A DNA stretch of 64,000 nucleotides from Herbidospora sakaeratensis. Lineage in GTDB: Bacteria > Actinomycetota > Actinomycetes > Streptosporangiales > Streptosporangiaceae. Below, one piece after another: positions 10,770 through 54,637 of the stretch. The stretch lies in assembly GCF_001570525.1 (NCBI RefSeq), contig NZ_BBXC01000011.1, positions 414,113 through 478,112 of the forward strand. The letters run 5' to 3'. How positions within the stretch are numbered: the first letter of the stretch is position 1; each line of letters begins with the position of its first letter. The notes below the pieces were generated by a model. It searched no databases and had not been told where the DNA came from. It saw only the letters and a list, made by a program, of their open reading frames with translations. Made by a program: the position numbers and the translations under genes.

Positions 10770-11507
10770 ATGGCTCAGGTATCACTGCGTCCGCAGAAGA
10801 CGGCCATGCTGGTCGCCCAGCGCATCGTGGCCGACATCAACCGCCGGGGCAACACCGTCGGCGACCGGCTGCCGCCCGAACGCGCCATGCTCGACACGTA
10901 TGAAGTCGGCCGCGGCACCCTCCGGGAATCGCTGCGTTTCCTCGAACTCCAGGGTGTGCTTTCGCTGAAGCCCGGCCCCGGGGGCGGCCCGGTCGTCCAG
11001 CGCCCCGACGCGACCAGCCTCGTCACGGCGCTGACCCTGCTGCTGCAGTTCGAGAACGCGCCCTTCCGCACGGTCGCCGAGGCCCGCGCCGCGCTGGAGC
11101 CGATGATGGCCCGGCTGGCGGCCGAGAGAATGGACGACGAACAACTCGCCGCCCTGAAGTCGAGCGTCGACGACATGCGCGCCGGCCTCTCCGACCAGAG
11201 CGTGTTCCTGGCCGAGAACAAACGATTCCACGACATCATCGCGCGCGGCTCGGGCAACACCATGTTCGGCTACCTGATCGACGCGCTACTGGGAATCCTC
11301 GACGCTTCCGCCATGGGATTCGACTATCCGGAAGTGCGCCGTTCGGCCGTCTGCCGCGCCCATGTGAAGATTTACGAGGCCCTGCGCGACCGCTGCCCCG
11401 AGAAGTCGGCGGCGGCCATGGCCGCCCACATCGACGAGTACGTCAAATACGCCGAACGCAAATTCCCCGAGGTGCTGGCCGCCCCGATCGTGTGGGGCAC
11501 GGTCTAG
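10770..11507 (+). CDS. FadR-subfamily GntR transcriptional regulator
   Basis: A 245-residue protein with an N-terminal winged helix-turn-helix (GDRLPPERAMLDTYEVGRGTL region, residues 30-80) and an FCD-type all-helical ligand domain with the metal-binding Asp/His pattern (ENKRFHDIIA and the later CRAHVKIYEAL). Such regulators respond to small organic acids. A TCGGAGG ribosome site precedes the ATG. The target is not obvious locally; the neighbours are convergent. It is a candidate, but unproven, partner for the GntR-type palindrome at 60698. Confidence 0.88.
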   Translation: MAQVSLRPQKTAMLVAQRIVADINRRGNTVGDRLPPERAMLDTYEVGRGTLRESLRFLELQGVLSLKPGPGGGPVVQRPDATSLVTALTLLLQFENAPFRTVAEARAALEPMMARLAAERMDDEQLAALKSSVDDMRAGLSDQSVFLAENKRFHDIIARGSGNTMFGYLIDALLGILDASAMGFDYPEVRRSAVCRAHVKIYEALRDRCPEKSAAAMAAHIDEYVKYAERKFPEVLAAPIVWGTV

Positions 11508-11818
11508 TGCACGCCGATCTCCAACCGTGAGATCAGCCCCGAGGCGTCGAGCCCGAAGCGGTGGTCGAGGTCGACCGGGCTCCCGGGGAAGTCGCCCTCG
11601 ACCCGGCAGGTGACCGTGGTGCCGTCGCCGCCGATCGGGGTCGAGGTGTAGTCGAACGCGGCCGAGGTGCGGCCGAGCCACTCCCTGATCGCCGCCCGGC
11701 CGTGGTGGTCGTGCCCGTCGTCGGTCACGTGGGCGTCGGCGGCGAAGGTCACCGCCGCCGAGGTCGGGTCGTCGCTCGTGGAGAGGATCAGATAGGCGCG
11801 GACGGCGTCGGGACGCAT
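11504..11818 (-). CDS. SnoaL/NTF2-like protein
   Basis: A 104-residue single-domain protein of the SnoaL-like fold: helix-rich start (AVRAYLILST), FAADAHVTDDGHDHHGRAAIREWL, then beta strands ending in DASGLISRLEIG. Members are isomerases, cyclases or ligand-binding proteins, so no substrate is assigned. It is encoded 12 nt downstream of the SDR gene and probably co-transcribed with it. Its stop overlaps that of the convergent GntR gene. Confidence 0.8.
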   Translation of the reverse strand: MRPDAVRAYLILSTSDDPTSAAVTFAADAHVTDDGHDHHGRAAIREWLGRTSAAFDYTSTPIGGDGTTVTCRVEGDFPGSPVDLDHRFGLDASGLISRLEIGVH

Positions 11819-11830
11819 GGTCGTTTCCTT

Positions 11831-12604
11831 TCAGAAGGTGGGGACGGTGCCGCCGTCGACCAGGTAGTCGGCCCCGATCACACTGGCGGCGGCGTCGGAG
11901 ACGAGGAAGCCGACGACCTCGGCCACTTCGTGCGGCTCGGCGAACCTGCCCAGGGGGACGCCGCCGAGGGAGTCGTACAGCGACGCCCAGGCCGCGTCGA
12001 GATCCCCGCCGAACTGGGCCGACAGCCGCTCGGCCAGGCGGTCGGCCGCCTGGGTGTGGATCCCGCCGGGCGAGACGGTGTTGACCCGCACGCCCTTCGG
12101 GGCCAGCTCGTTGGCCAGGCCCCGGCTGTAGGCGCGCAGGGCGGCCTTGGCGGCGGCGTAGCCGAGGGTGCCGTTCCAGAGCGGCAGGCGCGCCTGGATC
12201 GACGAGACGTGCACGATCGCGCCTCGCCCCTTCGCGACCATGCCCGGCACGAGGGCGCGGTCGAGCCGGACCGCCGACAGCAGGTTGAGGTCGAGCTCCC
12301 GCTGCCAGGTGTCGTCGTCGAGCACCGCGAACCCGCCGGCGGGCGCGCTCGACCCCCCGGCGACGTGCACCAGGATGTCGGGCGCCGGCACCTGGGCCGC
12401 GATCTCGGCCGCCGCGCCGGGCGAGGCCAGGTCGGCGGTGACGACCCGGTCGGCCGTGCTGCCGGGAGCGGCGGAGCGGGCGACCGCGACCACTTCGGCG
12501 CCGGCCGCCTTGAGCCGGTCGACGACGGCGGCCCCGGCGCCCTTGGTGCCCCCGGCGACCAGGGCCAGGCGTCCGTCGAGGGAGAAGCTGGGCAGGTATG
12601 TCAC
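11831..12604 (-). CDS. Short-chain dehydrogenase/reductase
   Basis: A 257-residue classical SDR with the nucleotide motif GGTKGAG near residue 18, the catalytic Ser in HVSSIQ, and YAAAK with Tyr and Lys four apart near residue 148. It is an NAD(P)(H)-dependent oxidoreductase of unknown substrate. It is divergent from the HxlR gene; the repeat-containing intergenic region suggests HxlR control. Confidence 0.9.
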
Positions 12605-12612
12605 GGTTACTT

Positions 12613-12653
12613 CTAACTTAGCAGTTACTAGGTGAGTGCTAACATAGCAGTGA
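12613..12653. promoter_or_regulatory. Direct-repeat operator of the HxlR regulator
   Basis: Two copies of CTAACWTAGCAGT (12613-12625 and 12639-12651) are spaced 26 bp apart, and each contains a CTAA/TTAG-like dyad. They lie in the short divergent region between the SDR and HxlR genes. HxlR proteins are known to bind tandem repeats, so this is the likely operator for both directions. Confidence 0.55.
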
Positions 12654-12672
12654 TTTGTGCGAGGAGTCCCCC

Positions 12673-13215
12673 ATGGTCAGCAAGATCCGGCTGGAAGACC
12701 GCGAGTGCCCGCTGTCGGCCACGATGAGCATCGTCGGCGAGTGGTGGACGGTGCTGATCCTGCACGACTGCTTCGACGGCTACACCCGCTTCGACGACTT
12801 CCAGGCCAACATCGGCCTGTCGTCGAGCATGCTGACCAGCCGCCTGAAGACCTTGGTCGACAGAGGCGTCCTGGAGCGGCGCCCCTACCAGGACCGCCCG
12901 GTCCGCCACGAATACGTCCTGACCGACCTCGGCCGCTCGCTACGGCCGGTCCTGGTCGCCATGGCCGCCTGGCGCAACTCCCAGCTCGCCCCCGGCGACC
13001 GCGCCATGATCCTCGTCGACCGCCGCACCGGCCAGGAGGCCGACCCGGTCGTGGTCGACGCCACCACGGGCGCCCGCGCCGACGGCGCCGACCACGTCTT
13101 CACGGCCGGCCCGGCGGCGGGCCCGACCATGCGCCGCCGCTACGAAGCCAGGAGCCCGAGTGGTACCATATCTGGTACCAAGGTGGAGGTTCCCGATGTC
13201 GATTACCGCAAGTGA
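12673..13215 (+). CDS. HxlR-family transcriptional regulator
   Basis: A 180-residue protein with the HxlR winged helix: [21 protein letters not shown] with the conserved Cys near residue 12, [22 protein letters not shown] and a wing near [16 protein letters not shown]. HxlR proteins sense electrophiles or redox changes, often through that Cys. The ATG at 12673 follows GAGGAG by 6 nt. The C-terminal tail is longer than usual. Its last codons overlap the promoter, operator and start of the downstream antitoxin gene. Confidence 0.88.
13161..13180. promoter_or_regulatory. Toxin-antitoxin operator inside the HxlR coding end
   Basis: Two copies of the 8-bp palindrome TGGTACCA are separated by TATC, so the whole 20 bp is nearly symmetric with dyad centres 12 bp apart. 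It lies 15 bp before the antitoxin ATG, within the 3' end of the HxlR gene. YefM-type antitoxins bind GTAC-centred palindromes (TGTACA in E. coli), which fits autoregulation here. Confidence 0.7.
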
Positions 13216-13456
13216 GGCGCGGCGCCGTCTGTTTCCCCTGATCGATGAGGTGAACGAAGACAGCGCGGCCGTGGAGATCGTCTCCAAGAGCAACCGCGCC
13301 TACCTGGTTCCGGCGGCCGAATACGAAGCGCTGCGGGAGACGGCCTACCTGCTGCGCTCCCCCGCCAACATGCGCCGGCTCATCTCCTCCTACCAGAAGG
13401 CCCTCGAGGGCCGTCACGAGATCCACGAGCTGATCGACGCAGACGACCACGAATGA
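13196..13456 (+). CDS. Phd/YefM-family antitoxin
   Basis: An 86-residue antitoxin. Its N-terminal DNA-binding fold shows the family pattern [20 protein letters not shown], then VEIVSKSNRAYLVPAAEYEAL. A C-terminal acidic/helical tail would wrap the toxin. It neutralises the adjacent YoeB-like RNase and represses the operon through the TGGTACCA operator. The ATG at 13196 follows GGAGG; the in-frame extension to 13160 would run through the operator and is rejected. Its last bases overlap the toxin ATG (ATGA). Confidence 0.92.
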   Translation: MSITASEARRRLFPLIDEVNEDSAAVEIVSKSNRAYLVPAAEYEALRETAYLLRSPANMRRLISSYQKALEGRHEIHELIDADDHE

Positions 13457-39998: not shown

Positions 39999-41891
39999 CT
40001 AGTCGTCGAGGCCGCCGAGCTCCCGGGCCAGGAAGGCGAGCATGTCGGCGGCCAGGCCGGCCGCCCGGTCGGCCGAACGGCCCGCGTGGCCGACCCCGGT
40101 CTCGTGCCGGAACAGGATCGGGCGCACCCCCGAGGTCGCCCCCTGCAGGGCCGCGCACATCTTGCGGGCGTGGAGGGGGTCGACGCGGCTGTCGCCGTCG
40201 AAGACCGTGAAGAGGGTCGCGGGGTAGTCGACGCCCTCCTTGACGTGGTGGTAGGGCGAATAGGCCAGCAGCCAGGCGAACTGCTCGGGGTCGTCGACCG
40301 ACCCGTATTCCGGCACCCACGAGCTCCCGAGCCCCGACTTCCCGAACCTGATCATGTCGAGCACCGGCGCCGAGCACACGGCGGCCGACACCAGCTCGGG
40401 CCGCTGGGTGACCAGCGCCCCGACGAGCAGCCCGCCGCCCGACTCGCCGGTGACCCCCAGCAGGTCGGGGGTGGTCCAGCCCGCCGCGATCAGGGTTTCC
40501 GCGGCGGCGGCGAAGTCGTCGAACGAGTTCTGCTTGCGCCCCCGCATGCCCGCCCGATGCCACCCCTCCCCTTCTTCGCCACCCCCTCTGACCTGGGCGA
40601 ACGCGAAGACGCCGCCCGCCTCCAGCCACGGCAGCACGTAGGAGGAGTAGGAGGGCGTGAGCGGCACCCCGAACCCGCCGTAGCCGTAGAGGACGCACGG
40701 CCGGGGGCCCGGCAGCCCCCTGCCGAGCACGACCATCCGGACCGGCGTGCCGTCGGCCGACTGGTAGACGACCTGGTGCGACTCGATCTCGGGCAGTTCG
40801 GCCCGGCCCGGGGCCGCCTCCCAGAGGGAGGTCTCGCCGGTGCGGGCGTCGTAGCGGTAGACGCTCTCGGGGGTCACGTAGTCGGAGTAGGTGAACCAGA
40901 CCTCGTGGTCGCGGGCCGACATGCGCCCGATGGAGCCGAGACCGGGGAGCGGGACCGCTCCTTGACGCTCCCCGGTCTCGGGATCGTGGACGGAGATCTC
41001 CCCGATCGCGTGGCGCACCCACGCCACCAGGAGAACCCCGTCGAGCAGGGCGAAGTCGGCGATCACGGCCTCGGGGTCCTCGGCCACCAGCTCGCGCAGG
41101 TCGTCGGGCGTGGCCGGGTCGGCGACGAGCAGCCGCCCCCGGGGGGCGTCGAGGGTCGTGATCATGTACGCTCTCCCGTCGCCCCCCACCGCCATCGCCG
41201 ACCGGGCCGCGACGTCGTGCTGGACCACCCGCCGGGCCGGGCTCACCAGGTCGCACAACCACACGTCGTTGCCCGGCCCCCGGTTGACCGAGAGGGTCAG
41301 CCAGCGGCCGTCGGCGCTGAGGGCGATGCCGTCGGCGGCGGCCACGTCGAGGTCGTCGCCGCCGAGGCGGTGGATGCGGGCCCGGCGGTCGCGGACGTAG
41401 TAGAAGCCGTCGCCGTCGGGCAACCAGGCCACCGGCGAGTGGCGCAGGCCCCCGATCGGCCCGTCGACGAGCCCGCCGGTCTCGGCGTCGAGGACGTAGA
41501 GCTCCGACCGTTCGTCGCCGCCCCGCGACAACTGGCAGGCGACGAGCCGCCCGTCGGGCGAGGGGTGCCAGGCGTCGAGCAGCGTGGTCGCGCCGGGGTC
41601 GATCGCCTCGGGGTCGAGCACGACCCGGTCGCCGGCGTAGAGGACCGGCAGGCGGCGGCCCGGATCGCGGCGGACGCGGAAGGCGGTGCCCGCCCGCCAG
41701 ACCGGGGCGCCCACGACGCCGGTGTCGCTCAGCTCCTCGATCCGGGCCCAGAACCGGTCGCGGCCGGGGAGGAGCTGGCTGCGCCAGACGACCTCCTGCT
41801 GCGCCTGCCAGGCCCGCGTCTCGTCTGAGCCGGGGTCTTCCAGCCAGCGGTAGGGGTCGGAGACGACGTGCCCGTGGATGATCTCGATCAT
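39999..41891 (-). CDS. Prolyl oligopeptidase (S9), candidate lanthipeptide leader protease
   Basis: A 630-residue serine peptidase. It has the family entry HGHVVSDPYRWLED near the start, a beta-propeller region (about 60-380) and an alpha/beta-hydrolase catalytic domain. The triad is Ser484 (TGESGGG), Asp567 (DGDSRV) and His602 (GVGHAG). POPs cut after Pro in short peptides. Its ATG overlaps the stop of the second ABC gene (ATGA), so it is the last gene of the lanthipeptide operon. In flavipeptin biosynthesis a POP (FlaP) removes the class III leader, and the precursor here has Pro12 at the end of its leader. The leader-protease role is inferred. No signal peptide is seen. Confidence 0.85.
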   Translation of the reverse strand: MIEIIHGHVVSDPYRWLEDPGSDETRAWQAQQEVVWRSQLLPGRDRFWARIEELSDTGVVGAPVWRAGTAFRVRRDPGRRLPVLYAGDRVVLDPEAIDPGATTLLDAWHPSPDGRLVACQLSRGGDERSELYVLDAETGGLVDGPIGGLRHSPVAWLPDGDGFYYVRDRRARIHRLGGDDLDVAAADGIALSADGRWLTLSVNRGPGNDVWLCDLVSPARRVVQHDVAARSAMAVGGDGRAYMITTLDAPRGRLLVADPATPDDLRELVAEDPEAVIADFALLDGVLLVAWVRHAIGEISVHDPETGERQGAVPLPGLGSIGRMSARDHEVWFTYSDYVTPESVYRYDARTGETSLWEAAPGRAELPEIESHQVVYQSADGTPVRMVVLGRGLPGPRPCVLYGYGGFGVPLTPSYSSYVLPWLEAGGVFAFAQVRGGGEEGEGWHRAGMRGRKQNSFDDFAAAAETLIAAGWTTPDLLGVTGESGGGLLVGALVTQRPELVSAAVCSAPVLDMIRFGKSGLGSSWVPEYGSVDDPEQFAWLLAYSPYHHVKEGVDYPATLFTVFDGDSRVDPLHARKMCAALQGATSGVRPILFRHETGVGHAGRSADRAAGLAADMLAFLARELGGLDD

Positions 41892-43531
41892 GACACCTGC
41901 CTGAGTCGGGGGTCCCAATGCCCGGCCAGATCCGCGTACAGGGGGGAGGCGGCGAGGAGTTCCTGGTGGGTGCCGGCGACGACCCGGGTGCCGTCCATGA
42001 CCAGCACCTTCCGGGCTCGCAGGGCCGAACTGATGCGGTGGGCGACCACGATGAGGGTGCCGCCGCGCCCGGCGAAGGCCTGCTCGACACGGGCCTCGGC
42101 CGCCGGGTCGAGACGGGAGGTCGCCTCGTCGAGGATGACCAGCGGGGCGTCGGCGAGATATGCCCTGGCCAGCGCGACGAGCTGCCGGTCGGCCGGGCCG
42201 AGCTCGGTGGCCTGGAGCTGCACGTGGCCGGCCCCGATGGCGTCGAGCGCCTGCCGCATGCGCCGGGGGTCGTGGTCGCCCAGGTTCTCGGCGACGGTGC
42301 CCCGGAAGACGTACGCCTCCTGCGGGATCAGCGCCCGCTGCCCCCGGTCGAGCCGGGCGGCCGGCACCCCGCCGACGGTCACCCGCCCCTGACCGGGCAC
42401 GATCAGCCCGGCGATCAGCGCGGCGAGGGTGGACTTCCCGATCCCGCTCGGCCCGACGACGGCGAGGTGCTCCCCTTCGGGGATGACCAGGTCGAGGCGG
42501 TCGACGACCGGCAGCGCCCGGGGCCCGTAGGCGAAGGTGACGCCCTGCAGCTCGGTGTGCACCCCCTCGGCCCGGCGGGTCTCCGGCCGGGCCGGCGGCA
42601 GCGCGGCCCGCAGGCGCGACAGCGTGACCCAGAGCCGCACCCCGCTCTCCCCCAGCCCACTGGCCAGGTTGAACAGCGCGGGCGTGAGCGACTGCATCAC
42701 GTAGGCGAGGGTGCCGAGCACCACCCCCGGGGTGGCCCCCAGCCGGGGCGCGTAGGCGAGCACCAGCAGGATCGGCGCCCACGCCCCCGCTCCCAGCACG
42801 ACGGTGCGGAGCGTGGTGACCGTCGCCAGCCTTCGGGCCGCGTGGCGCTGGCCGTCGAAGCGGGCCCCGGCGTATCGGGCGGCGTGGTCTTCGTCGCCGG
42901 ACGCGGCGATGTCGCCCAGCGCGGCGGTGACCGTGACCAGGCTCTCGGCGGTGGCCTCGTCGGCGAGCAGGTAGGCGTGCTGCCGCCTGGCGAGCGCGGG
43001 CAGCGAGAAGAGGAAGGCCCCCAGGCCGAGCAGCAGCGGCGGCAGCACCAGCAGGAGCAGTTCGGGCATCAGCGCGGCCACCCCCGCGACGACCCCGAGG
43101 AAGGCGAACACGAACGCCTTCACCGACCCGATCACCCCGGTGAACGCGTCGCGCGCCACCTCGACCTGCAGGTTGGCCCGGGTGACGGCGGCGGGGTCGT
43201 CTTCTCCGGCCTCCAGCGCGCCCCGGACCGTCGCGGTCAGCAGCTCCTCGCGGACGGGCTCGACGATGCCCGCCAGCGTGACGACCACCTGCCGCGCCCC
43301 CACGGCGGCGAAGACCCAGGAGACCCCGAGCAGGAACGTCCATGAGAGCCCCGCGACGGCCTGGCGGGCGGCGAACGCGTCGACCGCCCGTGCGACGGCC
43401 AGCCCGATGACGAACGCCGGCGCCGCCTCGACCAGCGACCAGAGCACGAACCGCCGCACCTGGCCGGGCTGTGCCTGGAAGGCGCGCCAGAGGAACACCC
43501 CGACGCGGGTCCGGTGCCCGAAGGAGATCAC
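41888..43531 (-). CDS. ABC exporter half-subunit with intact ATPase residues (lanT2)
   Basis: A 547-residue half-transporter: six membrane helices (residues 1-300) then an ATPase domain. Walker A is canonical (GPSGIGKS, Lys366), as are Walker B with catalytic Glu469 (LVILDEATS) and His498. The signature is degenerate: LGPADRQ at 444-450 instead of LSGGQ. This complements the upstream subunit, so the two should form a heterodimer with one working site. It corresponds to RamB in the SapB operon. GTG at 43531 has GGAGGA 6 nt upstream. It overlaps the POP gene downstream. It probably exports the modified peptide. Confidence 0.9.
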   Translation of the reverse strand: MISFGHRTRVGVFLWRAFQAQPGQVRRFVLWSLVEAAPAFVIGLAVARAVDAFAARQAVAGLSWTFLLGVSWVFAAVGARQVVVTLAGIVEPVREELLTATVRGALEAGEDDPAAVTRANLQVEVARDAFTGVIGSVKAFVFAFLGVVAGVAALMPELLLLVLPPLLLGLGAFLFSLPALARRQHAYLLADEATAESLVTVTAALGDIAASGDEDHAARYAGARFDGQRHAARRLATVTTLRTVVLGAGAWAPILLVLAYAPRLGATPGVVLGTLAYVMQSLTPALFNLASGLGESGVRLWVTLSRLRAALPPARPETRRAEGVHTELQGVTFAYGPRALPVVDRLDLVIPEGEHLAVVGPSGIGKSTLAALIAGLIVPGQGRVTVGGVPAARLDRGQRALIPQEAYVFRGTVAENLGDHDPRRMRQALDAIGAGHVQLQATELGPADRQLVALARAYLADAPLVILDEATSRLDPAAEARVEQAFAGRGGTLIVVAHRISSALRARKVLVMDGTRVVAGTHQELLAASPLYADLAGHWDPRLRQVS

Positions 43532-43590
43532 GACGTTCCTCCGCCCAGGCTCGGCCGCGCGGGAAAGCCGGAGATCGAAGCGCGTGTCAT
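43528..43590 (-). other. 20-codon bridging ORF between the two ABC genes
   Basis: An ATG at 43590 overlaps the TGA of the first ABC gene. It opens a 20-codon frame whose TGA overlaps the GTG start of the second ABC gene. It contains no Cys. It may only carry ribosomes across the gap, or be chance; the second ABC gene has its own strong SD. Not proposed as a functional protein. Confidence 0.25.
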
Positions 43591-45188
43591 CGCGCCTCCC
43601 CGCCCTGGAAGACCGCCCGGTAGGCGGGGTCGTGCCAGAGGGCGAGGTGGCGGTCGTAGCCGCGCAGCCGCCCGTCGTGCAGCCAGACCACCCGGTCGGC
43701 CCGGGCGGCGACGGCGGCCCGGTGGGTCACCATGACGCGGGTGCGCGGGTCGGCGGACAGGGCCGTGGAGACCTGGCGTTCGGTGATGGTGTCGAGGCTG
43801 GAGGTGGCGTCGTCGAGCACCAGCAGGCGGTTTCCCTTCGCGAAGGCCCTGGCCAGGCCGAGCCGCTGGCGTTCGCCGCCCGACATGGGGGCCTCGGCGA
43901 GCGGGGTCTGGTAACCGTGGGGCAGGCGGCGGATGAAGTCGTCGGCCCCGGCGGCCACGGCCGCGGGGCAGGAGCCGCCGGTCGCGTCGGCGACGGTGTC
44001 GCCGACCAGGTGGGGCCGCGCGACGGCGTAGCCGATGGCGGTTCTGAGCGACTCCCGGGTCAGCGACCGCAGCGGCACGCCGTCGAGCAGCACCTCACCG
44101 GTCTCGGGGTCGTCGAGACGCGCCGCGAGACGCGCGAACCGGGAGGCCCCGGCGCCGACCACGGCCACCGAGGCGCCGCCCTGGATCTCCAGCGCGAGGC
44201 CCGGCACGTCGCGGAAGCTGAGGGTTCCGGGGCCGGGCGGCAGCACGCGCACCCCGTGGACCCTCGGGCACTCGTCGAGGACGTCGGCCAGCCGGGCGCC
44301 GGCCGAGCGGGCGCGGGCCAGCCGGCCCAGTGATCCGATCGCGGGCCCCAGACCCGCGCCGATGACCACGTAGCGGGCGGCGGCGTAGAGCTCGCCGACC
44401 GACAACTCACCGGCGGCCAGCCGCCAGCCGCCCACGGCCAGCACCAGCACCTCCAGCAGCGGCACCACGATCGCGGCCCGCACCCCGGCGTCGGCGTTGG
44501 CCTTCCAGAGCGCCATCGCGTGGCCGCGCACCACCGGGAGGGCGGTCAGCACCCGCCGGGTCTCCTGTTCGGCGGTGCCGGCCGCCGCGATGGTGCGGGC
44601 GCCGCCGACCGCCTCGACCAGGCGCGCGGCGATGTCGGCCTGCGCCTCCTGGTAGCCCCCCGCGATCACCGTGGAGACCTTCAGGAACCGCTTCAGCACG
44701 AAGGCGATGGCGACCAGCCCGCCCGCCAGGGTCAGCGCCAGCCACGGATCGATGAGCACGAGCAGCACCAGCGCCCCGGCCGACGGCACCACCAGCGCCA
44801 CCGACGCGACGACGGCGTCGGCCGCGCGCCCGGCCTCTTCGGCGTTGAGGCCGAGCCGGGTCACCAGGTCGCCCTCGGGAATGCGCCGGGTCACTCCGGG
44901 ACCGGCGCCGAGCAGATGGGAGAGCGCCCGGTGGCGCAACCAGGCCGCCGCCCGCGCGCCGCCTGTGGCGCTCATGAGGACACCGAGACCGTCGCAGGCG
45001 ACGAGGAGCACCACGACGGCCCCGGCGCAGACCACCCACGTCAGCGAGAAGGTGTCGACGGCGCGGCCGAGCACGAACGGCAGTGCCAGCTCAAGGCCGG
45101 CGCCGACCAGCGCGACAGCGGCGAGCACGCCCGCCGCGGGCCCGCTACGCCTGATCGCCTCGGTTGTCAGCCGGTCGGCCGTCCGCAA
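43587..45188 (-). CDS. ABC exporter half-subunit with degenerate Walker A (lanT1)
   Basis: A 533-residue half-transporter with six membrane helices and an ATPase domain. The P-loop is destroyed: GAGASRFA at 345-352, with Phe351 where the Lys should be, and the Walker B Glu is Asp460 (LLVLDDATS). The signature MSGGERQ (435-441) and His489 are intact. It can therefore supply the signature for the partner's ATP site but not hydrolyse ATP itself. It corresponds to RamA in ramCSAB. The TTG start at 45188 is preceded by GAGGG. A hairpin separates it from the precursor gene. Confidence 0.88.
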   Translation of the reverse strand: MRTADRLTTEAIRRSGPAAGVLAAVALVGAGLELALPFVLGRAVDTFSLTWVVCAGAVVVLLVACDGLGVLMSATGGARAAAWLRHRALSHLLGAGPGVTRRIPEGDLVTRLGLNAEEAGRAADAVVASVALVVPSAGALVLLVLIDPWLALTLAGGLVAIAFVLKRFLKVSTVIAGGYQEAQADIAARLVEAVGGARTIAAAGTAEQETRRVLTALPVVRGHAMALWKANADAGVRAAIVVPLLEVLVLAVGGWRLAAGELSVGELYAAARYVVIGAGLGPAIGSLGRLARARSAGARLADVLDECPRVHGVRVLPPGPGTLSFRDVPGLALEIQGGASVAVVGAGASRFARLAARLDDPETGEVLLDGVPLRSLTRESLRTAIGYAVARPHLVGDTVADATGGSCPAAVAAGADDFIRRLPHGYQTPLAEAPMSGGERQRLGLARAFAKGNRLLVLDDATSSLDTITERQVSTALSADPRTRVMVTHRAAVAARADRVVWLHDGRLRGYDRHLALWHDPAYRAVFQGGEAR

Positions 45189-45234: not shown

Positions 45235-45264
45235 GGGCCCTGGGCTCCCGCGAGCCCAGGGCCC
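45235..45264 (-). terminator. Hairpin between precursor and transporter genes (attenuator)
   Basis: A 13-bp perfect stem (GGGCCCTGGGCTC and its complement) with a 4-nt loop lies 12 nt after the precursor stop and 46 nt before the transporter start. There is no T tract. It probably allows partial read-through and protects the upstream mRNA, giving more precursor than transporter. This arrangement is common in lanthipeptide operons. Confidence 0.75.
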
Positions 45265-45275
45265 CGATCGGGTGC

Positions 45276-45425
45276 CTAGTGGCAGAGCAGCAGGCTCAGG
45301 TTGCTGGGCGTCTGGGACGCGCAGCCGAGCAGGGTCAGCGTGCTGCCGCCGCCACCGTGGCCGCCGCCGCCGTGACCGCTGCCGCCGCCGGGAAGCTCCA
45401 TCGCCTGAAGGTCGAGAAGAACCAT
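45276..45425 (-). CDS. Class III lanthipeptide precursor (SapB-like)
   Basis: A 49-residue peptide gene. The leader begins MVLLDLQAMELP with the LLDLQ helix motif recognised by LanKC. Residues 13-27 are a Gly-rich stretch with His18 and His23. The core has two class III motifs: Ser28-x2-Thr31-x3-Cys35 and Ser41-x2-Ser44-x3-Cys48, ending in His49. Each can become a lanthionine or labionin ring. Length, motif spacing and Leu-rich rings resemble SapB and catenulipeptin. The ATG at 45425 has GGAG 7 nt upstream; an ATG at 45431 is too close to that SD. It lies 64 nt after lanKC and before the exporter genes. The His/Gly segment is unlike the usual leader. Confidence 0.92.
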   Translation of the reverse strand: MVLLDLQAMELPGGGSGHGGGGHGGGGSTLTLLGCASQTPSNLSLLLCH

Positions 45426-45489: not shown

Positions 45490-48000
45490 CTAGCTGTTCG
45501 GGGCCCCGATCACCTCCTTGGCCGGCGGGCGAAGGGGGACACCACCGGGCGCGGCGTAGGGCTCCGCGCCAAGTGGATGTGTGAAGGGCAACGGGGTGCC
45601 GCTGAGGGCGTAGAGGACGCCGGCGGTGCCGGTCGCGAAGTCCATCGACAGCCGGAGCAGCTGGTCGCCGGGGAAGGCGATCCCGTCGCGGTAGGGCAGG
45701 ACGTGCCAGTCGAGGCCGGGGATCAGGGTCCGGTCGGCCAGCACCATCCCGGCCCGCCCCGAGAACAGGCCGGGCTGCACGAAGAACCGGCAGCGGCCCA
45801 CTTCGAGCAGGTCGGGCAGGGCGGCGGCCAGCGGCGAACCGGGCCGCTGGCGCAGCAGGTCGGCCAGCACGATCGCGATGCCGACCGAGCCCTCGTCGAG
45901 GTAGGGCAGGGTGCGCCAGCCCTGGTCGACCTGCAGCGATCCGTCGGACGTGGTGACGCAGCGCTTCAGGTCGAGGCGCAGCGCCCGCTCGGCCAGGTCG
46001 AGCAGCGCCGGGTCGCGGGTGTGGTCGTAGGCGCGCAGGAACAGCAGGGCGGGGCCGCTCAGGCCGTAGAGGAGACCGGCTCTGGGGTTCGCGCCGCCCG
46101 AGGTCGCGGGCACGTCGTCGGGCAGCCGATCGGCGCACAGCTCGACCAGCGGGCGGGCGTCGAGCCCCAGGTGGAGCAGGTTGAGCCCGATGCCGGCCAG
46201 CCCCGACCACAACCCGAGGTCGAGATCGCGCCACGGGCCCGCCATCGCCCGGTCGACGAGGTCGAGCGCCCGGTCGACGTGGCCGAACCGGTCGAGCACG
46301 TAGGCGACGCCGTGGAGCCCGTCGTAGAAACCGGGCGGCGCGTCGGGCCGCTGCCGGAGCAGCCATTCTTCGAGGTCGGGGAAGCGCCCGGCCCCGGCCG
46401 CGTCGAGCGCGAACAGCACCCCGGCCGCGCCGTGGGCCAGGTTGACGCCGCCGCCGGGCCGGAACTGGGCGATGTCGCCGGGGAACAGCCGGTCGGCCCG
46501 CTCGGGCGTGGCGCTGGCCAGGATCGCCCGCGCCATCGCCGCCATCGGATCGCCCAGGGTCACGCTCGCCGTCGGGCCGCCCCCGATGGGCCCGCTGATC
46601 GTGTGGACGGCCCGCTTGATCAGCTCGGGCGGCACCGGGAAGGTGTCGACGATCAGGCGCCCGAGCTGGCCCGCCTTGGCCCGCGCCAGCGGCACGGTGA
46701 TCGTGAGCTGCGGGGCGAACAGGCCCAGCGTGAGACAGGCGAGGGCGTAGTGGTCGACGTCGGCGCCCCGGCGGTCGGCCGGCGCCTGGAAGGCCGGGTG
46801 GGCCAGCGCCGACCGTCCGCGGTCTTCGATGAAGGTGGCGACCTCGAAGTCGATGAGGACGAGCCGTCCTTCTGGCGTGATCAGGATGTTGTTGGGGTGG
46901 AGGTCGCAGAAGACGACCCCGCGTTCGTGCAGGGCCTCGATCGCGGCCCGCACCTTGGGCAGCGTGTCGAGCGCCCAGACGGTGTAGGCGGCGATCGACT
47001 CGGCGCTCGCGTCGGCCTTCGTCAGCGGGAAGGTGCGGACCAGCGTGCGCTGGAGCGGGGTGGCGTCGACGAACTCCATCACCAGGAAGTGGTGGTCGCC
47101 GAGCACGAAGTAGTCGCGGTAGCCGGGGGCGCAGTCGAGCCCGTCGAGCCGCCGCAGCACCTCGCGTTCGTGCTGGAGCCGCGCCACCGCGTCGCGCTCG
47201 GCGGCGTCGAGGCCCGCCATCGGCCGGGCCTCCTTCAGCACGACCCGCTCGCCGGTCCGCCGGTCGGTGGCGAGGTAGACGCCGCCGCCGTTGGAGAAGT
47301 GCATGACGGAGTCGACCGTGTAGGGCAGCTCGGTCGTGGTGACCGCGTTCCTGGCCTCCAGGTGGGGCCTCAGGAAGTCGGGCAGCTCGACCCAGTCGGG
47401 CACCGTGAACGACGGCCCTCTGACATCGGGCACCAGTTCGCCGCGGTCGTTCTCCATCGCCGGGACGAGGTCGCCGTTGGCGGCGACGCAGCGCCGGGCC
47501 GTGAACCCGCCGTAACGGACGAACAGGGGCCCGTCGCCGTAGCGGAGATCACTCAGGATGTAGGGGCCGCGCACCCCCGTCAGCAGACCGTCGAGCTCCT
47601 TGAGCGTCAGCTCCAGGCAGTCGTGGCGGGGGTAGATGGTGACCAGTTTGCCGCTCGCGCCCCGCTGCGCCCCTTTCGAGTTGAGCATCGTGACAACCGA
47701 ACGGCTGCGCAGGAATTTGAATGGGATATCACGTTCGACGCAATAGTCCCAGACGATTTCCAGCACCCGCGCCGCGTCGGCGAGCCCGGCCGACACGTGG
47801 ATCTTCCAACCCTGCGGCGGAACGTCGTGGCCGGTCGGGGCGTAGTGGAACCAGGTGTCGGACGGCTGGTGGGACCAGCCACGCGGGACCTCACGGCCGG
47901 CCATGGCGAAATCCGGAATCTCGGTTCCGCGCCGGTCGGCGGTGTCATAGAAAAGCCGGTCCGCGAGGCAATAAAGCTCATACTGGTCATTCACTGCCAT
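45490..48000 (-). CDS. Class III lanthipeptide synthetase LanKC
   Basis: An 836-residue three-domain enzyme. Residues 1-215 are the phospho-Ser/Thr lyase. Residues about 225-480 are a Ser/Thr kinase with glycine loop NGGGVYLATD, Lys256, catalytic Asp366 (CDLHPNN) and a DFE segment at 384-386. Residues 510-836 are the LanC-like cyclase, with GLHGVAY, GLAGIG and GSVGIA repeats but none of the Cys-Cys-His zinc ligands (LFSGRAG in place of CHG). The missing zinc site marks class III, not class IV. It phosphorylates, eliminates and cyclises the adjacent precursor. The ATG at 48000 abuts GGGAG; a GTG at 47994 is better spaced. An upstream frame to 48306 is rejected. Confidence 0.94.
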   Translation of the reverse strand: MAVNDQYELYCLADRLFYDTADRRGTEIPDFAMAGREVPRGWSHQPSDTWFHYAPTGHDVPPQGWKIHVSAGLADAARVLEIVWDYCVERDIPFKFLRSRSVVTMLNSKGAQRGASGKLVTIYPRHDCLELTLKELDGLLTGVRGPYILSDLRYGDGPLFVRYGGFTARRCVAANGDLVPAMENDRGELVPDVRGPSFTVPDWVELPDFLRPHLEARNAVTTTELPYTVDSVMHFSNGGGVYLATDRRTGERVVLKEARPMAGLDAAERDAVARLQHEREVLRRLDGLDCAPGYRDYFVLGDHHFLVMEFVDATPLQRTLVRTFPLTKADASAESIAAYTVWALDTLPKVRAAIEALHERGVVFCDLHPNNILITPEGRLVLIDFEVATFIEDRGRSALAHPAFQAPADRRGADVDHYALACLTLGLFAPQLTITVPLARAKAGQLGRLIVDTFPVPPELIKRAVHTISGPIGGGPTASVTLGDPMAAMARAILASATPERADRLFPGDIAQFRPGGGVNLAHGAAGVLFALDAAGAGRFPDLEEWLLRQRPDAPPGFYDGLHGVAYVLDRFGHVDRALDLVDRAMAGPWRDLDLGLWSGLAGIGLNLLHLGLDARPLVELCADRLPDDVPATSGGANPRAGLLYGLSGPALLFLRAYDHTRDPALLDLAERALRLDLKRCVTTSDGSLQVDQGWRTLPYLDEGSVGIAIVLADLLRQRPGSPLAAALPDLLEVGRCRFFVQPGLFSGRAGMVLADRTLIPGLDWHVLPYRDGIAFPGDQLLRLSMDFATGTAGVLYALSGTPLPFTHPLGAEPYAAPGGVPLRPPAKEVIGAPNS

Positions 48001-49124: not shown

Positions 49125-50120
49125 TCAGCTCGACTCCCGGACCACCAGTTCCGTCGGCAGTATGACCGGGTCGGTGCGCCCGTCTTCGAACAGTCCCAGC
49201 AGCAGGCTGACCACCGCCAGGGCCTGGTCGGCCATGGGGCTGCGTACCGTCGTGAGCGGCGGGTCGGTGTAGAGGGCGGCCTCTATGTCGTCGAACCCGA
49301 CCACGGCCACGTCGTCGGGGACCCGGCGGCCGGCCCGGCGCAGGGCGTGGAGGGCGCCGATCGCCATCAGGTCGTTGGCGGCGAAGACGGCGTCGAGGCC
49401 CGGGTCGTCTTCGAGGAGCTGGCACATGGCCTGGTCGCCGGAGACCCGGGTGAAGTCGCCGACCGCGATGATCGACCGGCGGCCGGTGTCGCGCAGCGTC
49501 TCCCGGTAGCCGGTCAGGCGGTCCTGCGAGGCGATCATGTCGAGCGGGCCCGAGATGGTGGCGATCCGCCGCCGGCCCCGGCTCAGCAGGTGCTCGACCG
49601 CCTGGCGGGCTCCCCCGAGGTTGTCGTTGTCGACGTAGGGCACCGATGGGGCCGAGACGGGCTTGCCGAACGACGCCATCGGCAGGCCCATCCGCATCAG
49701 GGCGGCGGGCAGCGGGTCGGCCCCGTAGAAGGACACCAGCATCACGCCGTCGACGTGCCCGGCCGCGACGTACTCCTGAACCCGCACCCGGCTCTCGTCG
49801 GACCCGGCGAGCATCAGGACCACTTGCTTGGACGCCGCTTCCAGCGCCCGCGACGCCGAGCGCACCACGGCCGAGAACATGGGGTCGTCGGAGAACAACC
49901 CGGCGGGCGGGTCGGAGACCACCAGCGCGATCGAGTTGGTCCGCTGGGTCACCAGGCTGCGGGCGACCGAGTTGGGCACGTAGCCGAGCTCGTTCACCGC
50001 CCGCAGCACCAGCTCGCGGAAGTTCGGCGTCACGGTCGTGTCGCCGTTGACCACCCTTGAGACGGTCGACTTGGACACGCCGGCGCGGGCGGCGACCGCT
50101 TCCAAGGTTGGACGTTTCAC
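49125..50120 (-). CDS. LacI-family repressor of the sugar operon
   Basis: A 331-residue regulator with an N-terminal LacI HTH (TLEAVAARAGVSKSTVSRVVNG) and hinge helix (PNSVARSL), then a periplasmic-binding-protein-like sensor ending LPTELVVRES. Its GTG overlaps the stop of the GH1 gene (GTGA), so it is the last gene of the operon and is co-induced. It most likely binds the palindrome at 54747-54768 and is released by a beta-glucoside. Confidence 0.93.
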   Translation of the reverse strand: MKRPTLEAVAARAGVSKSTVSRVVNGDTTVTPNFRELVLRAVNELGYVPNSVARSLVTQRTNSIALVVSDPPAGLFSDDPMFSAVVRSASRALEAASKQVVLMLAGSDESRVRVQEYVAAGHVDGVMLVSFYGADPLPAALMRMGLPMASFGKPVSAPSVPYVDNDNLGGARQAVEHLLSRGRRRIATISGPLDMIASQDRLTGYRETLRDTGRRSIIAVGDFTRVSGDQAMCQLLEDDPGLDAVFAANDLMAIGALHALRRAGRRVPDDVAVVGFDDIEAALYTDPPLTTVRSPMADQALAVVSLLLGLFEDGRTDPVILPTELVVRESS

Positions 50121-51490
50121 TCGATGCCGTTCCGCTGGATGACGTCCCGGTACCACAGAGCGCTGTCCTTGGGGAGGCGGCGCTGCGTGGCGTAGTCGAT
50201 CCGCACGATACCGAATCTCTGGTGGTATCCCTCCGCCCACTCGAAGTTGTCGAAGAGCGACCACACCAGATAGCCGCGCAGGTCGGCCCCCTCGGCGATG
50301 GCCTCGTGGCAGGCGCGCAGGTGTCCGTCGAGGTAGGCGACCCGGTCGTCGTCGGGGACGCGGTCGCCGACGACCTTGTCGTGGAAGGCCGCGCCGTTCT
50401 CGGTGACCAGCAGGCCGACGTCCGGGTAGTCGCGCGACAGCCGCACCAGCAGCCGCGACAGGCCCGAGGGGATGATCGGCCAGCCCATGGCGGTCTGCGG
50501 TCCCTCGATGGAGACGAAGTCGACGCCGTCGGCGCCGGGCCAGGCCGGCGGCGCCGCCGCGCCGGGAGACGCCTGGATCACGCACGGGTTGTAGTAGTTG
50601 ATGCCGAGCAGGTCGAGCGGCTGGTTGATGATCTCCAGGTCGCCGTCGCGGATGTGGTCGAGGCCGCCGTGCCGCTCCACGATCTCCAGGACCTCGGCCG
50701 GGTAGGTGCCCTTCAGCGCCGGGTCGAGGAACTGCCGGTTGAGCAGGGCGTCGACCAGCCTGACGGCGTCGGAGTCTCCCTGCGACAGGGCGATGCCCGC
50801 GTCGAGGATCTGCGCCGGGGTGACCACCGGGGCCATGTTCAGCGTCAGCGCCAGGGTGCCGGTGAGGTTCTGGGCGGCCAGGCCGTGGGCGAGCAGCAGG
50901 TGGTGGGCCGCCTTGAAGGCGGCCGAGGGGTCGGTGACGCCGGGGGCGTGCACGCCGCTGCCGTAGCCGAGGAACGCCGAGACCCACGGCTCGTTCAGGG
51001 TCGTCCAGGTGGAGACGCGGTCGGCGAGCCGGGCGTGCACGGCCGCCGCGTAGTCGGCGAAGTAGTAGGCCGTGTCGCGGTTGGCCCAGCCGCCGCGGTC
51101 TTCGAGGTTCTGCGGCAGGTCCCAGTGGTAGAGGGTCACGTACGGCGTGATCCCGGCGCCCAGCAGCTCGTCGACCAGGCGCTCGTAGAAGTCGAGGCCG
51201 CGCGGGTTGGCCGGGCCCGAGCCGTCGGGCACGACCCGGGGCCAGGCGGTGGAGAAGCGGTAGACGCGCAGGCCGAGATCGGCCATCAGGCGCACGTCCT
51301 CCGGGTAGCGGTGGTAGTGGTCGCAGGCGATGTCGCCGGTGTGGCCGTCGGCGACCTTGCCGGGGGTGCGCGCGAAGGTGTCCCAGATCGACACGCCGCG
51401 GCCGTCTTCCCGGGCGGCCCCCTCCACCTGGTACGACGCCGTGGCGGCACCCCAGATGAACCTCTCGGGAAACTGGATTTCCGGCGTCAT
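50117..51490 (-). CDS. GH1 beta-glucosidase
   Basis: A 457-residue glycoside hydrolase family 1 enzyme with the N-terminal signature FIWGAATASYQVEGA, the acid/base Glu in TLNEPW and the nucleophile Glu in VTENGAA. It lacks a signal peptide and so acts on imported beta-glucosides such as cellobiose in the cytoplasm. It overlaps the permease gene upstream (ATGA) and lacI downstream, which places it firmly in the uptake operon. Confidence 0.96.
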   Translation of the reverse strand: MTPEIQFPERFIWGAATASYQVEGAAREDGRGVSIWDTFARTPGKVADGHTGDIACDHYHRYPEDVRLMADLGLRVYRFSTAWPRVVPDGSGPANPRGLDFYERLVDELLGAGITPYVTLYHWDLPQNLEDRGGWANRDTAYYFADYAAAVHARLADRVSTWTTLNEPWVSAFLGYGSGVHAPGVTDPSAAFKAAHHLLLAHGLAAQNLTGTLALTLNMAPVVTPAQILDAGIALSQGDSDAVRLVDALLNRQFLDPALKGTYPAEVLEIVERHGGLDHIRDGDLEIINQPLDLLGINYYNPCVIQASPGAAAPPAWPGADGVDFVSIEGPQTAMGWPIIPSGLSRLLVRLSRDYPDVGLLVTENGAAFHDKVVGDRVPDDDRVAYLDGHLRACHEAIAEGADLRGYLVWSLFDNFEWAEGYHQRFGIVRIDYATQRRLPKDSALWYRDVIQRNGIE

Positions 51491-52311
51491 CCCTTGACCG
51501 CCCCCTGCATGATTCCTCCGATGATGTGCTTGCCGAGAAGTGCGAACACGATGACGAGCGGGAGCGTGCCGAGCGCGGTCCCGGCGAGGCCCATCACGTA
51601 GTCGTTGACGTAGCCGGCGGCCAGGGTCGACAGCGCCACCTGGACCGTCGGGTTCTCCGGGGTGAGCACCATGAGCGGCCACATGTAGTCGTTCCAGGCC
51701 GTCATGAAGGTCAGCATGCCGAGCACGGCCGCCGCCGGGCGGGCCGCCGGGAAGACGACGTGCCACACCAGGCCCCAGGTCGTGCAGCCGTCGACGCGGC
51801 CCGCTTCGAGCAGTTCGGTCGGCAGCGCGCGGGACAGGAACTGCGTCATGAAGAACACGCCGAACGCGTTGACCAGGGCGGGCACGACGACGGCGTACAG
51901 GGAACCGACCCATTCCAGCTTCACCATGAGGATGTAGAGCGGGATGATGCCGGCCAGGGTCGGCACCATCATCGTGCCGACGGTCATGAGCAGCAGGATG
52001 TTGCGGCCGCGGAAGCGCAGTTTGGCGAAGGCGAAGCCGGCCAGGGTCGAGAAGAACATGACCGAGATCGAGATCGAGCCCGCCACCAGGACCGAGTTGA
52101 CCATGGCGAGGCCGAAGGGCACCGTGTCGAAGACGCGCGAGACGTTCTCGAAGAAGTTGCCGCCGGGGAAGAGCGGCGGCGGCACCGACGCCAGTGAGGC
52201 GTTGTCGCGCGAGGCCACCACGATCGAGTAGTAGAGCGGGATCGTGAAGAAGAACGCGACCGCGGTCAGGGTGAGATAGGTCAGCCGGTTGTTGACCCGA
52301 CGGCCGGTCAT
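51487..52311 (-). CDS. Sugar ABC transporter permease (MalG-type)
   Basis: A 274-residue inner-membrane permease with six helices. The EAA loop is ELLEAGRVDGCTTWGLVWHV near residue 170, which contacts the ATPase. It pairs with the preceding MalF-type permease, whose stop overlaps its start. No ATPase gene lies in the operon, so a shared MsiK-type ATPase elsewhere is expected, as for cebEFG in Streptomyces. Confidence 0.94.
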   Translation of the reverse strand: MTGRRVNNRLTYLTLTAVAFFFTIPLYYSIVVASRDNASLASVPPPLFPGGNFFENVSRVFDTVPFGLAMVNSVLVAGSISISVMFFSTLAGFAFAKLRFRGRNILLLMTVGTMMVPTLAGIIPLYILMVKLEWVGSLYAVVVPALVNAFGVFFMTQFLSRALPTELLEAGRVDGCTTWGLVWHVVFPAARPAAAVLGMLTFMTAWNDYMWPLMVLTPENPTVQVALSTLAAGYVNDYVMGLAGTALGTLPLVIVFALLGKHIIGGIMQGAVKG

Positions 52312-53273
52312 CGGATGCTTCCCTTCATCCGGTTGGTGAGCAGGTAGTTGATCCCGGCGATGATCAGAATGAAGACGAAGATCATCCAGGAGATGGCCGA
52401 CGAGAAGCCGAAGTCGAGGCGCATGTAGTTCTCGTAGAAGAACAACGAGAGCGTCTGGTACTGCCGGTCCTGGCCGCCGGTGAGGGTGTAGGCGCCGAAC
52501 AGCAGCGGCTCGGCGAAGATCTGCATCGAGCCGATGGTCGAGGTGATCACCACGAAGGCGATGGTGGGCCGGATCATCGGCACCGTGACCTTGCGGAGCT
52601 GGGTGAAGCTCGACGCGCCGTCGATGGTCGCGGCTTCATAGAGCTCTCTCGGTACGGCCTGCATCGCGGCCAGCAGGATGAGCGCGTTGTAGCCCGTCCA
52701 CCGCCACATGATCATCGTCGAGATGGCCACATGGGAGCTCAGGGTGCCGTCACGCCAGGCGATGCCGTCGAACCCGAAGCTGGTGATGACCCAGTTGATC
52801 AGGCCGAAGTCGCGGCCGAAGATCTGCGAGAAGATCACCACGACCGCCACCACACTGGTCACGTTGGGCAGCAGCAGGGTGATCCGGAAGAAGTTCTGGG
52901 CCCGCAGCGGCCGGTTCAGCAGATGGGCCAGCCACAACGCGAGCAGCAGCTGCGGCAGCATCGACAACAGGCCGATCGACAACGTGTTGAACGTGGCGTT
53001 CCAGAAGTACGAGTCCGCCAGCAGGACCCGGAAGTTCTCCAGGCCCACGAAGGTGTGCTCGTCGTCCAGCAGCGTCCACTCGTGCAGGCTCACCCAGAGC
53101 GTGTAGCCGATGGGGAACAGCCCGAAGGCGCAGAACAGCAGGAAGAACGGGGCGACGTACGCGTACGGGGAGGCTTTGACGTCGACCGCGTGCCGCCAGT
53201 GGCGGGCGGTCAGCCGGCGCTTGCCTCCCGGTCGCCGTGGCGGCGCTGCACGTTCCGGGGCACGCGTGGCCAT
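52308..53273 (-). CDS. Sugar ABC transporter permease (MalF-type)
   Basis: A 321-residue permease with a basic Pro/Arg-rich N-terminus, six helices and an EAA loop (ELYEAATIDGASSFTQLRKV, near 220). It forms the membrane channel with the MalG-type protein. The ATG at 53273 follows AGGAG; an in-frame start at 53315 lies within the upstream hairpin. It is second in the operon after the binding protein. Confidence 0.94.
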   Translation of the reverse strand: MATRAPERAAPPRRPGGKRRLTARHWRHAVDVKASPYAYVAPFFLLFCAFGLFPIGYTLWVSLHEWTLLDDEHTFVGLENFRVLLADSYFWNATFNTLSIGLLSMLPQLLLALWLAHLLNRPLRAQNFFRITLLLPNVTSVVAVVVIFSQIFGRDFGLINWVITSFGFDGIAWRDGTLSSHVAISTMIMWRWTGYNALILLAAMQAVPRELYEAATIDGASSFTQLRKVTVPMIRPTIAFVVITSTIGSMQIFAEPLLFGAYTLTGGQDRQYQTLSLFFYENYMRLDFGFSSAISWMIFVFILIIAGINYLLTNRMKGSIR

Positions 53274-53294
53274 GGCGCTCCTCTCAAGGGAAGG

Positions 53295-53319
53295 CGGGGT
53301 GGCCGGTCCGGCCACCCCG
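53295..53319 (-). terminator. Hairpin between binding-protein and permease genes
   Basis: A GC-rich inverted repeat (CGGGGTGGCCGG and its complement) lies in the 56-bp gap after the binding-protein stop. It probably lowers permease expression relative to the binding protein, as intercistronic hairpins do in mal-type operons. Confidence 0.6.
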
Positions 53320-53329
53320 CGGCGTACGG

Positions 53330-54637
53330 CTACTTGATCTTCTCGGAGTCCGCGACGGCCTGCTTCCAGGCTTCTTCGGGGTCCTGGCCCTGGAGCTCGA
53401 TGCGGCCGAGGCCGTTGCCCATGGCGACGTTCACGTCACCCGACTTGGGGCCGGTGTACTGCGGCTTCAGCGCCTTGGCGGCGTCGGTGAAGATCTTGCC
53501 GATGGGGGCGTCGCCGAAGTAGGGGTTCACGAAGGTGGCGACGGCCGGGTCCTCGTAGAGGGCGGGCAGCGACGGCAGGGCCGAGGCGTCCTTCCACAGG
53601 GTGAGCTGGCTCTCCTTGCTGGTCAGGAAGTTGATCAGCTCGGCGGCCTCCTTCGGGTGCTTGCCCTGCTTGGGGGCGAGCAGGTGGGTGCCGCCCTGGT
53701 TGCCGCCGCCGCCGGGCACGGCCGCGATGTCCCAGGTGCCCTCGCCGGGCTTCTGGTCCTTGATCACGCCGGTCTTCCAGGCGGGGCAGACCATCGTGGC
53801 GAAGGTGCCCTTGGCGATGCCGGTGGTCCACTCGGGGGTGAACGCGGTGAGCTTGCCCGACAGCTTGTTCTGGATCATCGAGACCGCGACGTCCCAGGCC
53901 TTGCGCACGTCGGGGTTGCTGCCGACGACGACCTTGTCGCTGGTGTCGTAGAAGCCGACCGGGGCCTGCTCGACCATGGCGCGGAAGTGCTCACCGGGGC
54001 CGTCGGTGAAGGCGGCCTTGCCGCCGGCGGCGACGAACTTCTTGCCGGTCTCGACGTACTGCTCCCAGGTCGGCCACAGGGCGCTGACCTCGTCGCGGTT
54101 GGTGGGCAGGCCGGCCTCCTTGAAGAGGTCGGGCCGGTAACACATGGCCAGGCCGCCGACGTCGGTGCCGAGGCCGATGAGCTGGGAGCCGTCCTTCGAC
54201 AGGCCCAGCTGCCACTTCCAGTCGAGGTACTCCGACTGGCGCGAGTTCAGGCCGTAGTCGTTCAGGTTGTGGAACTTGTCGGCGACCTCGCGGAAGGTGG
54301 CGATGAAGCCGCCCTCGACGGCCACGATGTCGGCGGCGCCCGCGCCGGTGGCGACCTGGGTGACCAGGTTGTTGTGGTGGTCGTTGAACTGCGCCCGGCG
54401 CTCGGTGATCTCGACGTTCGGGTGGGTCTTCTTGAACTCCTCGTACAGCGGCCCGTAGTGGAAGTCGCTGAAGAGGGCCACGGTCAGCTTGACCGGTTCG
54501 GCGGGGGCGGCGGCGCCGCCGCTGGCGGCTCCGGGGGCCGGCGTGCTCTCCCCGCCACCACAGGCGGCGGCCAGGAGGGAAGCGGCGATCAGGGGTGCCA
54601 GCAGCCGCGCGGCACGGCGGCGAGGGGGGTGAGACAT
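53330..54637 (-). CDS. Sugar-binding lipoprotein of the ABC importer
   Basis: A 435-residue extracellular solute-binding protein (family 1) with an RRR-rich lipoprotein signal ending LLAAAC (Cys26), a Ser/Ala/Pro linker, and the bilobal body (LTVALFSDFHYGPLYEEFKKTHPNV by its first strands). It captures an oligosaccharide outside the cell and delivers it to the permeases. The downstream GH1 suggests a beta-glucoside such as cellobiose. The ATG follows AGGAAGG by 9 nt. LacI-type palindromes lie upstream. Confidence 0.94.
   Translation of the reverse strand: MSHPPRRRAARLLAPLIAASLLAAACGGGESTPAPGAASGGAAAPAEPVKLTVALFSDFHYGPLYEEFKKTHPNVEITERRAQFNDHHNNLVTQVATGAGAADIVAVEGGFIATFREVADKFHNLNDYGLNSRQSEYLDWKWQLGLSKDGSQLIGLGTDVGGLAMCYRPDLFKEAGLPTNRDEVSALWPTWEQYVETGKKFVAAGGKAAFTDGPGEHFRAMVEQAPVGFYDTSDKVVVGSNPDVRKAWDVAVSMIQNKLSGKLTAFTPEWTTGIAKGTFATMVCPAWKTGVIKDQKPGEGTWDIAAVPGGGGNQGGTHLLAPKQGKHPKEAAELINFLTSKESQLTLWKDASALPSLPALYEDPAVATFVNPYFGDAPIGKIFTDAAKALKPQYTGPKSGDVNVAMGNGLGRIELQGQDPEEAWKQAVADSEKIK

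Follow-up and report, generated by a model that had tools for sequence, protein, structure and literature searches.

Does a 49-codon reading frame that lies between a LanKC gene and two exporter genes of Herbidospora sakaeratensis encode a lanthipeptide precursor, and how would its product be modified, released from its leader and used? The frame lies in a 64-kb window (the whole stretch of DNA that was analysed, 64,000 nucleotides). We read the locus with high confidence as a five-gene operon (LanKC, LanA, ABC, ABC, and prolyl oligopeptidase) predicted to yield, by FlaP-type processing, a class III lanthipeptide with two rings that belongs to the RamS/SapB-AmfS family. The gene set, its order and strand, an ATGA overlap and the conserved grammar of the precursor are read directly from the sequence. 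In class III lanthipeptide systems the protease is usually described as lying outside the cluster (PMC7268733, PMC8960859); if our reading is correct, modifying enzyme, substrate and protease stand together in one operon, which is unusual for class III and would allow tests of how ring formation gates leader removal.

The precursor gene and its relatives

The features of the precursor gene, lanA, are:

45276..45425, minus strand: lanA, a 49-aa class III lanthipeptide precursor plus stop, RamS / SapB-AmfS family (translation, PF19402, NF033212)
45405..45425, minus strand: MVLLDLQ leader recognition motif, codons 1-7 (alignment of 18 precursors)
45390..45392, minus strand: Pro12 codon, predicted prolyl oligopeptidase cut site (Pro in 86 precursors at 59 loci; co-occurrence with a linked protease)
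45345..45389, minus strand: Gly/His-rich spacer, codons 13-27, 15 aa, with GG at its end (spacers of relatives, 8-15 aa)
45279..45344, minus strand: predicted core STLTLLGCASQTPSNLSLLLCH, codons 28-49 (conserved grammar, 86/86)

The translation of 45425..45276 on the minus strand is MVLLDLQAMELPGGGSGHGGGGHGGGGSTLTLLGCASQTPSNLSLLLCH. A 49-codon gene with its own SD had been placed at 45276-45425 in an earlier note; these coordinates are right, and the strand, which the note did not give, is minus. AAAGGAG stands 7 nt ahead of the ATG at 45425, and 64 nt separate the LanKC stop from the lanA start. An in-frame ATG at 45431, only 1 nt from GGAG, was rejected as the start; 45425 is the better choice because of its AAAGGAG spacing and because the two extra residues that 45431 would add are missing in some relatives. 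The leader is of the LLDLQ type, as the note had it, and L3, L4, D5, L6, and Q7 are without variation among 18 aligned precursors. Both motifs that it reported at 28/31/35 and 41/44/48 are exact in the translation (S28-x2-T31-x3-C35 and S41-x2-S44-x3-C48) and are separated by the five residues 36-40. The leader holds a single Pro, at position 12; the sole other Pro of the peptide, Pro40, lies inside the core.

lanA is short and Gly-rich, and GC-rich DNA often leaves frames open, so that a chance reading frame has to be weighed against a gene. All six frames of the whole 64-kb window and of 60 dinucleotide-preserving shuffles of it were searched for frames ending in both motifs: the real window holds one, lanA, and the shuffles hold none, whether or not an LxLQ leader is demanded. 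The shuffles, the matches to curated family models (Pfam RamS, NCBIfam SapB/AmfS) and the occurrence of the same grammar beside LanKC 86 times all contradict a chance frame, the probability of which we regard as negligible. lanA matches Pfam RamS (PF19402) at 53.8 bits (cut-off 24.3) and the NCBIfam model of SapB/AmfS family lanthipeptides, SapB_AmfS_lanti (NF033212), at 52.8 bits (cut-off 25), in both cases over the full model length; a further model for class III precursors, NF038159, gives 22, under its cut-off of 30. Pfam RamS at E <= 1 has one match across the whole 8.6-Mb genome. Judged by its sequence, lanA is a real gene for a class III lanthipeptide precursor and a new member of the SapB/AmfS family.

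That a class III precursor stands here with a LanKC gene and exporters is thus what the earlier note claimed and what the family models bear out; its further description of the precursor as unreported-looking and hidden fails against PF19402, NF033212 and the 86 precursors that share its pattern. The family is catalogued and not hidden, because two curated models recognise lanA far above their cut-offs. The peptide itself, though its kind is known, appears uncharacterised, because the open literature searched contains none of six short strings taken from the cores of this group.

The relatives were gathered by a LanKC search of named genomes, from which 75 loci were fetched; precursors beside LanKC were picked on two features, an LQ leader and a single loose Ser/Thr-Ser/Thr-Cys motif, with no demand for a mid-ring Thr, a final His or GG. 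Pro occupies the place of Pro12 in 86 precursors, at 59 of the 75 loci. Every one of these 86 ends in S-x2-T-x3-C-x5-S-x2-S-x3-C-H with GG directly before it, and ring 1 is therefore taken always to use Thr. Core residues 1, 3, 4, 8, 10, 13, 14, 17, 21, and 22 never vary among the 86, whereas the spacer varies in composition as well as in length (8-15 residues). More than one precursor is present in 19 of the 59 loci; among the 36 precursor pairs within loci, the core is the same in 24, the spacer in 17 and the leader in 19, as against identical cores in 65 of 3,619 pairs drawn between loci. Such repeated identical cores fit dosage of one product more than diversification; recent duplication also explains them.

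The nearest LanKC relatives are those of six Herbidospora species (90-97% identity), and all 7 genomes of the genus, that of the window among them, carry the precursor at 96-100% identity. A profile of the group matches 37 of 120 genomes of the window's family at E 1e-6 or better. A hand count puts 21 of these matches across the full profile, with E 2.4e-18 or lower, and the other 16 as weaker or partial. Loci of the Pro12 type come mostly from Streptosporangiaceae-type genera and Actinomadura, with one from Amycolatopsis and one from Jiangella (L071, L035), a concentration that is due partly to the search having begun from this LanKC. PMC7268733 mentions Herbidospora once, for a class II cluster of H. 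mongoliensis.

The operon and predicted ring formation

The remaining features of the operon are:

45490..48000, minus strand: LanKC, class III lanthionine synthetase, 836 aa if the start is the ATG at 48000 (NF038151; RamC_N and Pkinase domains)
45235..45264, minus strand: perfect 13-bp inverted repeat 3' of lanA, an mRNA hairpin with a putative role as transcript end or stabiliser (fold against shuffles)
43587..45188, minus strand: ABC half-transporter 1, start uncertain (PF00664 and PF00005)
41888..43531, minus strand: ABC half-transporter 2, start uncertain (PF00005 only)
39999..41891, minus strand: prolyl oligopeptidase (S9), candidate leader protease, 630 aa (PF02897, 181.2 bits; PF00326, 152.2 bits)

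The position of lanA between a LanKC gene and two exporter genes, as first described, is confirmed by family models, which for the second ABC gene recognise the Pfam ATPase domain only. The prolyl oligopeptidase gene was overlooked in that first reading, as were the conserved Pro12 and GG and the Thr in the middle of ring 1 of every counted relative. LanKC scores 1005.7 bits against NF038151 (cut-off 575) and is the sole locus in the genome above that cut-off. The ATG of the oligopeptidase gene overlaps the stop of ABC 2 as ATGA. Three longer frames were rejected: the first 102 residues of a 938-aa LanKC frame as coding (the NF038151 match starts at residue 109, just past the ATG at residue 103), a 1114-aa frame as a whole gene (oligopeptidase content begins only at the ATG at 41891), and an 858-aa frame as a whole gene (Arg/Pro-rich and judged to be out-of-frame translation). 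The hairpin that follows lanA stands out only moderately, its fold having z -1.95 relative to 200 shuffles, of which 7 do equally well; an intrinsic terminator was rejected there, a scan for T-run terminators being negative despite the 13-bp hairpin.

Elsewhere in the genome, a second lanthionine-synthetase-like gene (L085; contig C8, 846734-849208) scores 451 bits against the class III model, below the cut-off, and is possibly class IV. Within the window, 49125-54637 on the minus strand holds a LacI-type regulator, a beta-glucosidase-like enzyme, two ABC permeases and a binding protein, as read from the translations, and is a probable sugar-use operon.

In the proposed pathway LanKC would bind the LLDLQ leader and dehydrate Ser28, Thr31, Ser41, and Ser44, after which ring A would close on Cys35 and ring B on Cys48. 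Ring A, with Thr at its mid-position, should be methyllabionin, or methyllanthionine/lanthionine, and ring B, with Ser there, should be labionin, or lanthionine; a methyl group is predicted in ring A because the mid-ring residue is invariantly Thr. Depending on the peptide, the same Ser/Ser(Thr)/Cys motif is reported to yield either lanthionine or labionin (PMC7268733), and methyllabionin is known from NAI-112 (PMC10885120). If the proposal holds, this operon could show whether a mid-position Thr gives methyllabionin.

The leader motif, the two tandem Ser/Ser(Thr)/Cys motifs and the order LanKC-LanA-ABC-ABC are common to this locus and to RamS / SapB-AmfS (PF19402, NF033212; make-up of the ram cluster as described in PMC4255298). 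The locus differs in Pro12 and the Gly-rich spacer, the Thr of ring A, the C-terminal Cys-His and the linked prolyl oligopeptidase and, compared with the ram cluster, in that the window's contig has no match at E 1e-20 to a NarL-type response regulator. Durhapeptin of Streptomyces durhamensis shares the LLDLQ leader and two tandem SxxSxxxC motifs but has another core, a transporter gene durT, and flanking ABC-domain and response regulator genes; a durhapeptin variant is reported to induce aerial hyphae, and the text consulted names no oligopeptidase (PMC13380574). NAI-112 (AplA/AplKC/AplP) is likewise class III and carries both labionin and methyllabionin (PMC10885120); it is, however, glycosylated (PMC12328550) and its cluster is described with an M1 protease (PMC10885120), whereas the five genes of this operon include neither a glycosyltransferase nor an M1 protease.

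Predicted removal of the leader

The oligopeptidase (P0007) has Ser489, Asp572, and His607 at what we take to be the catalytic positions of its family, and it aligns to solved prolyl endopeptidases (2bkl at E 4.9e-117). Flavipeptin (FlaA/FlaP, Kribbella flavida) is, by its published descriptions, also of class III, with a clustered prolyl oligopeptidase and a leader Pro (PMC10885120, PMC5719810). FlaP cleaves the modified precursor FlaA after the leader Pro, and metalloproteases acting as aminopeptidases probably take away the residues left by that cut (PMC10885120); Amycolatopsis and Jiangella are reported to have FlaA homologues together with correlated FlaP-like proteases (PMC8960859). By analogy, Pro12 is the likely cleavage site of the linked oligopeptidase, and Pro40, within the core, could be an additional one. 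The two ABC half-transporters would export the peptide, the oligopeptidase would cut after Pro12, probably in the modified peptide only, as published for FlaP, and an aminopeptidase would trim the Gly-rich spacer up to the ring at Ser28 to leave an amphipathic 22-mer. The calculated mass of residues 28-49 is 2271.160 before modification and 2199.118 after loss of four waters ([M+2H]2+ 1100.566); residues 13-49 less four waters come to 3244.525. Three M1 peptidases encoded on contigs C26, C12, and C9, with none on the window's contig C11, are candidates by sequence for the trimming enzyme.

The 60 of 75 loci that have a precursor and at least 5,500 bases downstream divide into 52 with Pro12 plus a linked protease, 7 that lack the two, a single one (L043) where only Pro12 is present, and no case of a protease without Pro12 (Fisher's p 2e-8, relatedness ignored). 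A quick LanKC tree gives two independent contrasts, both in the expected direction, and the association cannot reach significance on the tree because there are just these two. The protease gene directly follows the precursor in five loci (L031, L035, L040, L045, and L071) and the second ABC gene in 47; its position thus differs among loci, and the linkage therefore survives rearrangement. One locus without the pair is L025 of Planomonospora sp. ID67723 (8852-13229), whose LanKC groups within those of Planomonospora/Streptosporangium loci that bear the protease. Its core is different, Pro12 and any oligopeptidase match are lacking, and an antisense NarL-type response regulator immediately follows the exporters; the locus is perhaps a natural swap of processing mode. 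L043, from Actinomadura sp. J1-007 (8538-13410), has a Pro12-type precursor with no oligopeptidase match within the 6 kb examined, fragmentary exporter matches and an antisense response regulator at the usual place of the protease.

An unlinked M1 protease of the AplP type might take off the leader while the linked prolyl oligopeptidase serves another job, a reading that would make use of the three Peptidase_M1 matches in the genome and would suit L043, which retains Pro12 without a linked oligopeptidase. AplP reportedly processes several class III precursors, including that of flavipeptin (PMC10885120, PMC12328550). In Brevibacterium, weak flaP homologues are described in 6/7 predicted class III clusters and a leader Pro in 1/6 precursors (PMC5719810); with the leader Pro absent from most of these clusters, the presence of an oligopeptidase does not by itself imply cleavage at Pro. 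Against this reading stand the ATGA overlap that joins the oligopeptidase gene to the exporter gene and the co-occurrence of the linked enzyme with Pro12; moreover, both enzymes may act in sequence, the endopeptidase first and the aminopeptidase second. We consider removal by an M1 protease alone quite unlikely and retain cleavage at Pro12 by the linked oligopeptidase. This enzyme is only a candidate for a dedicated protease, because a second close oligopeptidase (56% identity) is encoded elsewhere in the same genome and a quick tree does not separate the linked proteases from that copy.

Possible role and regulation

The mature 22-mer may be a SapB-like surface-active peptide that aids aerial growth or sporulation. 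This morphogen role is the most likely one, yet it is the weakest step of our reading and we hold it tentatively, as a nearly even call based on family, gene order and spread in filamentous genera. The operon has the gene set and order of ramC-ramS-exporters, and morphologically complex genera are the main reported source of SapB-like clusters (PMC4255298). A ramS-like gene is also described in Kribbella flavida, termed a simpler actinomycete (PMC4255298), which counts a little against a morphogen; the lack of a NarL-type regulator match on the window's contig, described below, also speaks against it. If the role is correct, the operon would help to test SapB-like peptides as drivers of aerial growth outside Streptomyces.

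The same biosynthesis might instead deliver an antagonistic or signalling peptide, bacteriocin-like or a species-specific signal, with no function as a surfactant morphogen. Other activities exist among class III products, NAI-112 being antinociceptive and others antiviral (PMC12328550), and inter-ring core residues 9, 11, and 12 vary between loci while the ring residues are constant. The core is identical, however, in six named Herbidospora species, and the mean difference between the cores of different loci is 5.2 residues out of 22, which is not the pattern of a diversifying weapon; as read, the operon has no sixth gene. An antagonist or signal therefore seems somewhat unlikely to us, and the morphogen remains the preferred role. 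In its most extended form, the proposal would have a dedicated, ring-sensing prolyl oligopeptidase release a deeply conserved, mixed methyllabionin/labionin morphogen of aerial growth, the counterpart of SapB in Streptosporangiales and some neighbouring filamentous actinomycetes, with the Gly-rich spacer as a disposable tether trimmed to the first ring; taken whole, this is rather improbable.

The cluster as a whole is not filed as an orthologue of the ram cluster, because that would require a linked ramR-type response regulator and none was found. With the NarL-type regulator of L025 as query and 150 of 184 candidates scored, the genome has at least 46 response-regulator matches at E 1e-20 or better, none of which lies on contig C11 and none of which could be named a RamR orthologue. 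According to a 2013 review, ramR is reported in streptomycetes only (PMC4255298). Of the 52 loci that bear the protease, 20 match a NarL-type response regulator on the strand opposite the cluster, in most cases truncated where the locus ends; the 20 include L039, L051, and L072, with the regulator at the downstream end. Its absence from the other loci means little, because few bases are available beyond the protease; for the window, the genome search is the stronger test. Three protease-free loci also have response-regulator matches, two of which (L025, L043) are the query proteins themselves. In the window, an anti-sigma-type HATPase gene (PF13581; 39542-39994, plus strand) converges on the oligopeptidase gene, at a place where several relatives have a response regulator.
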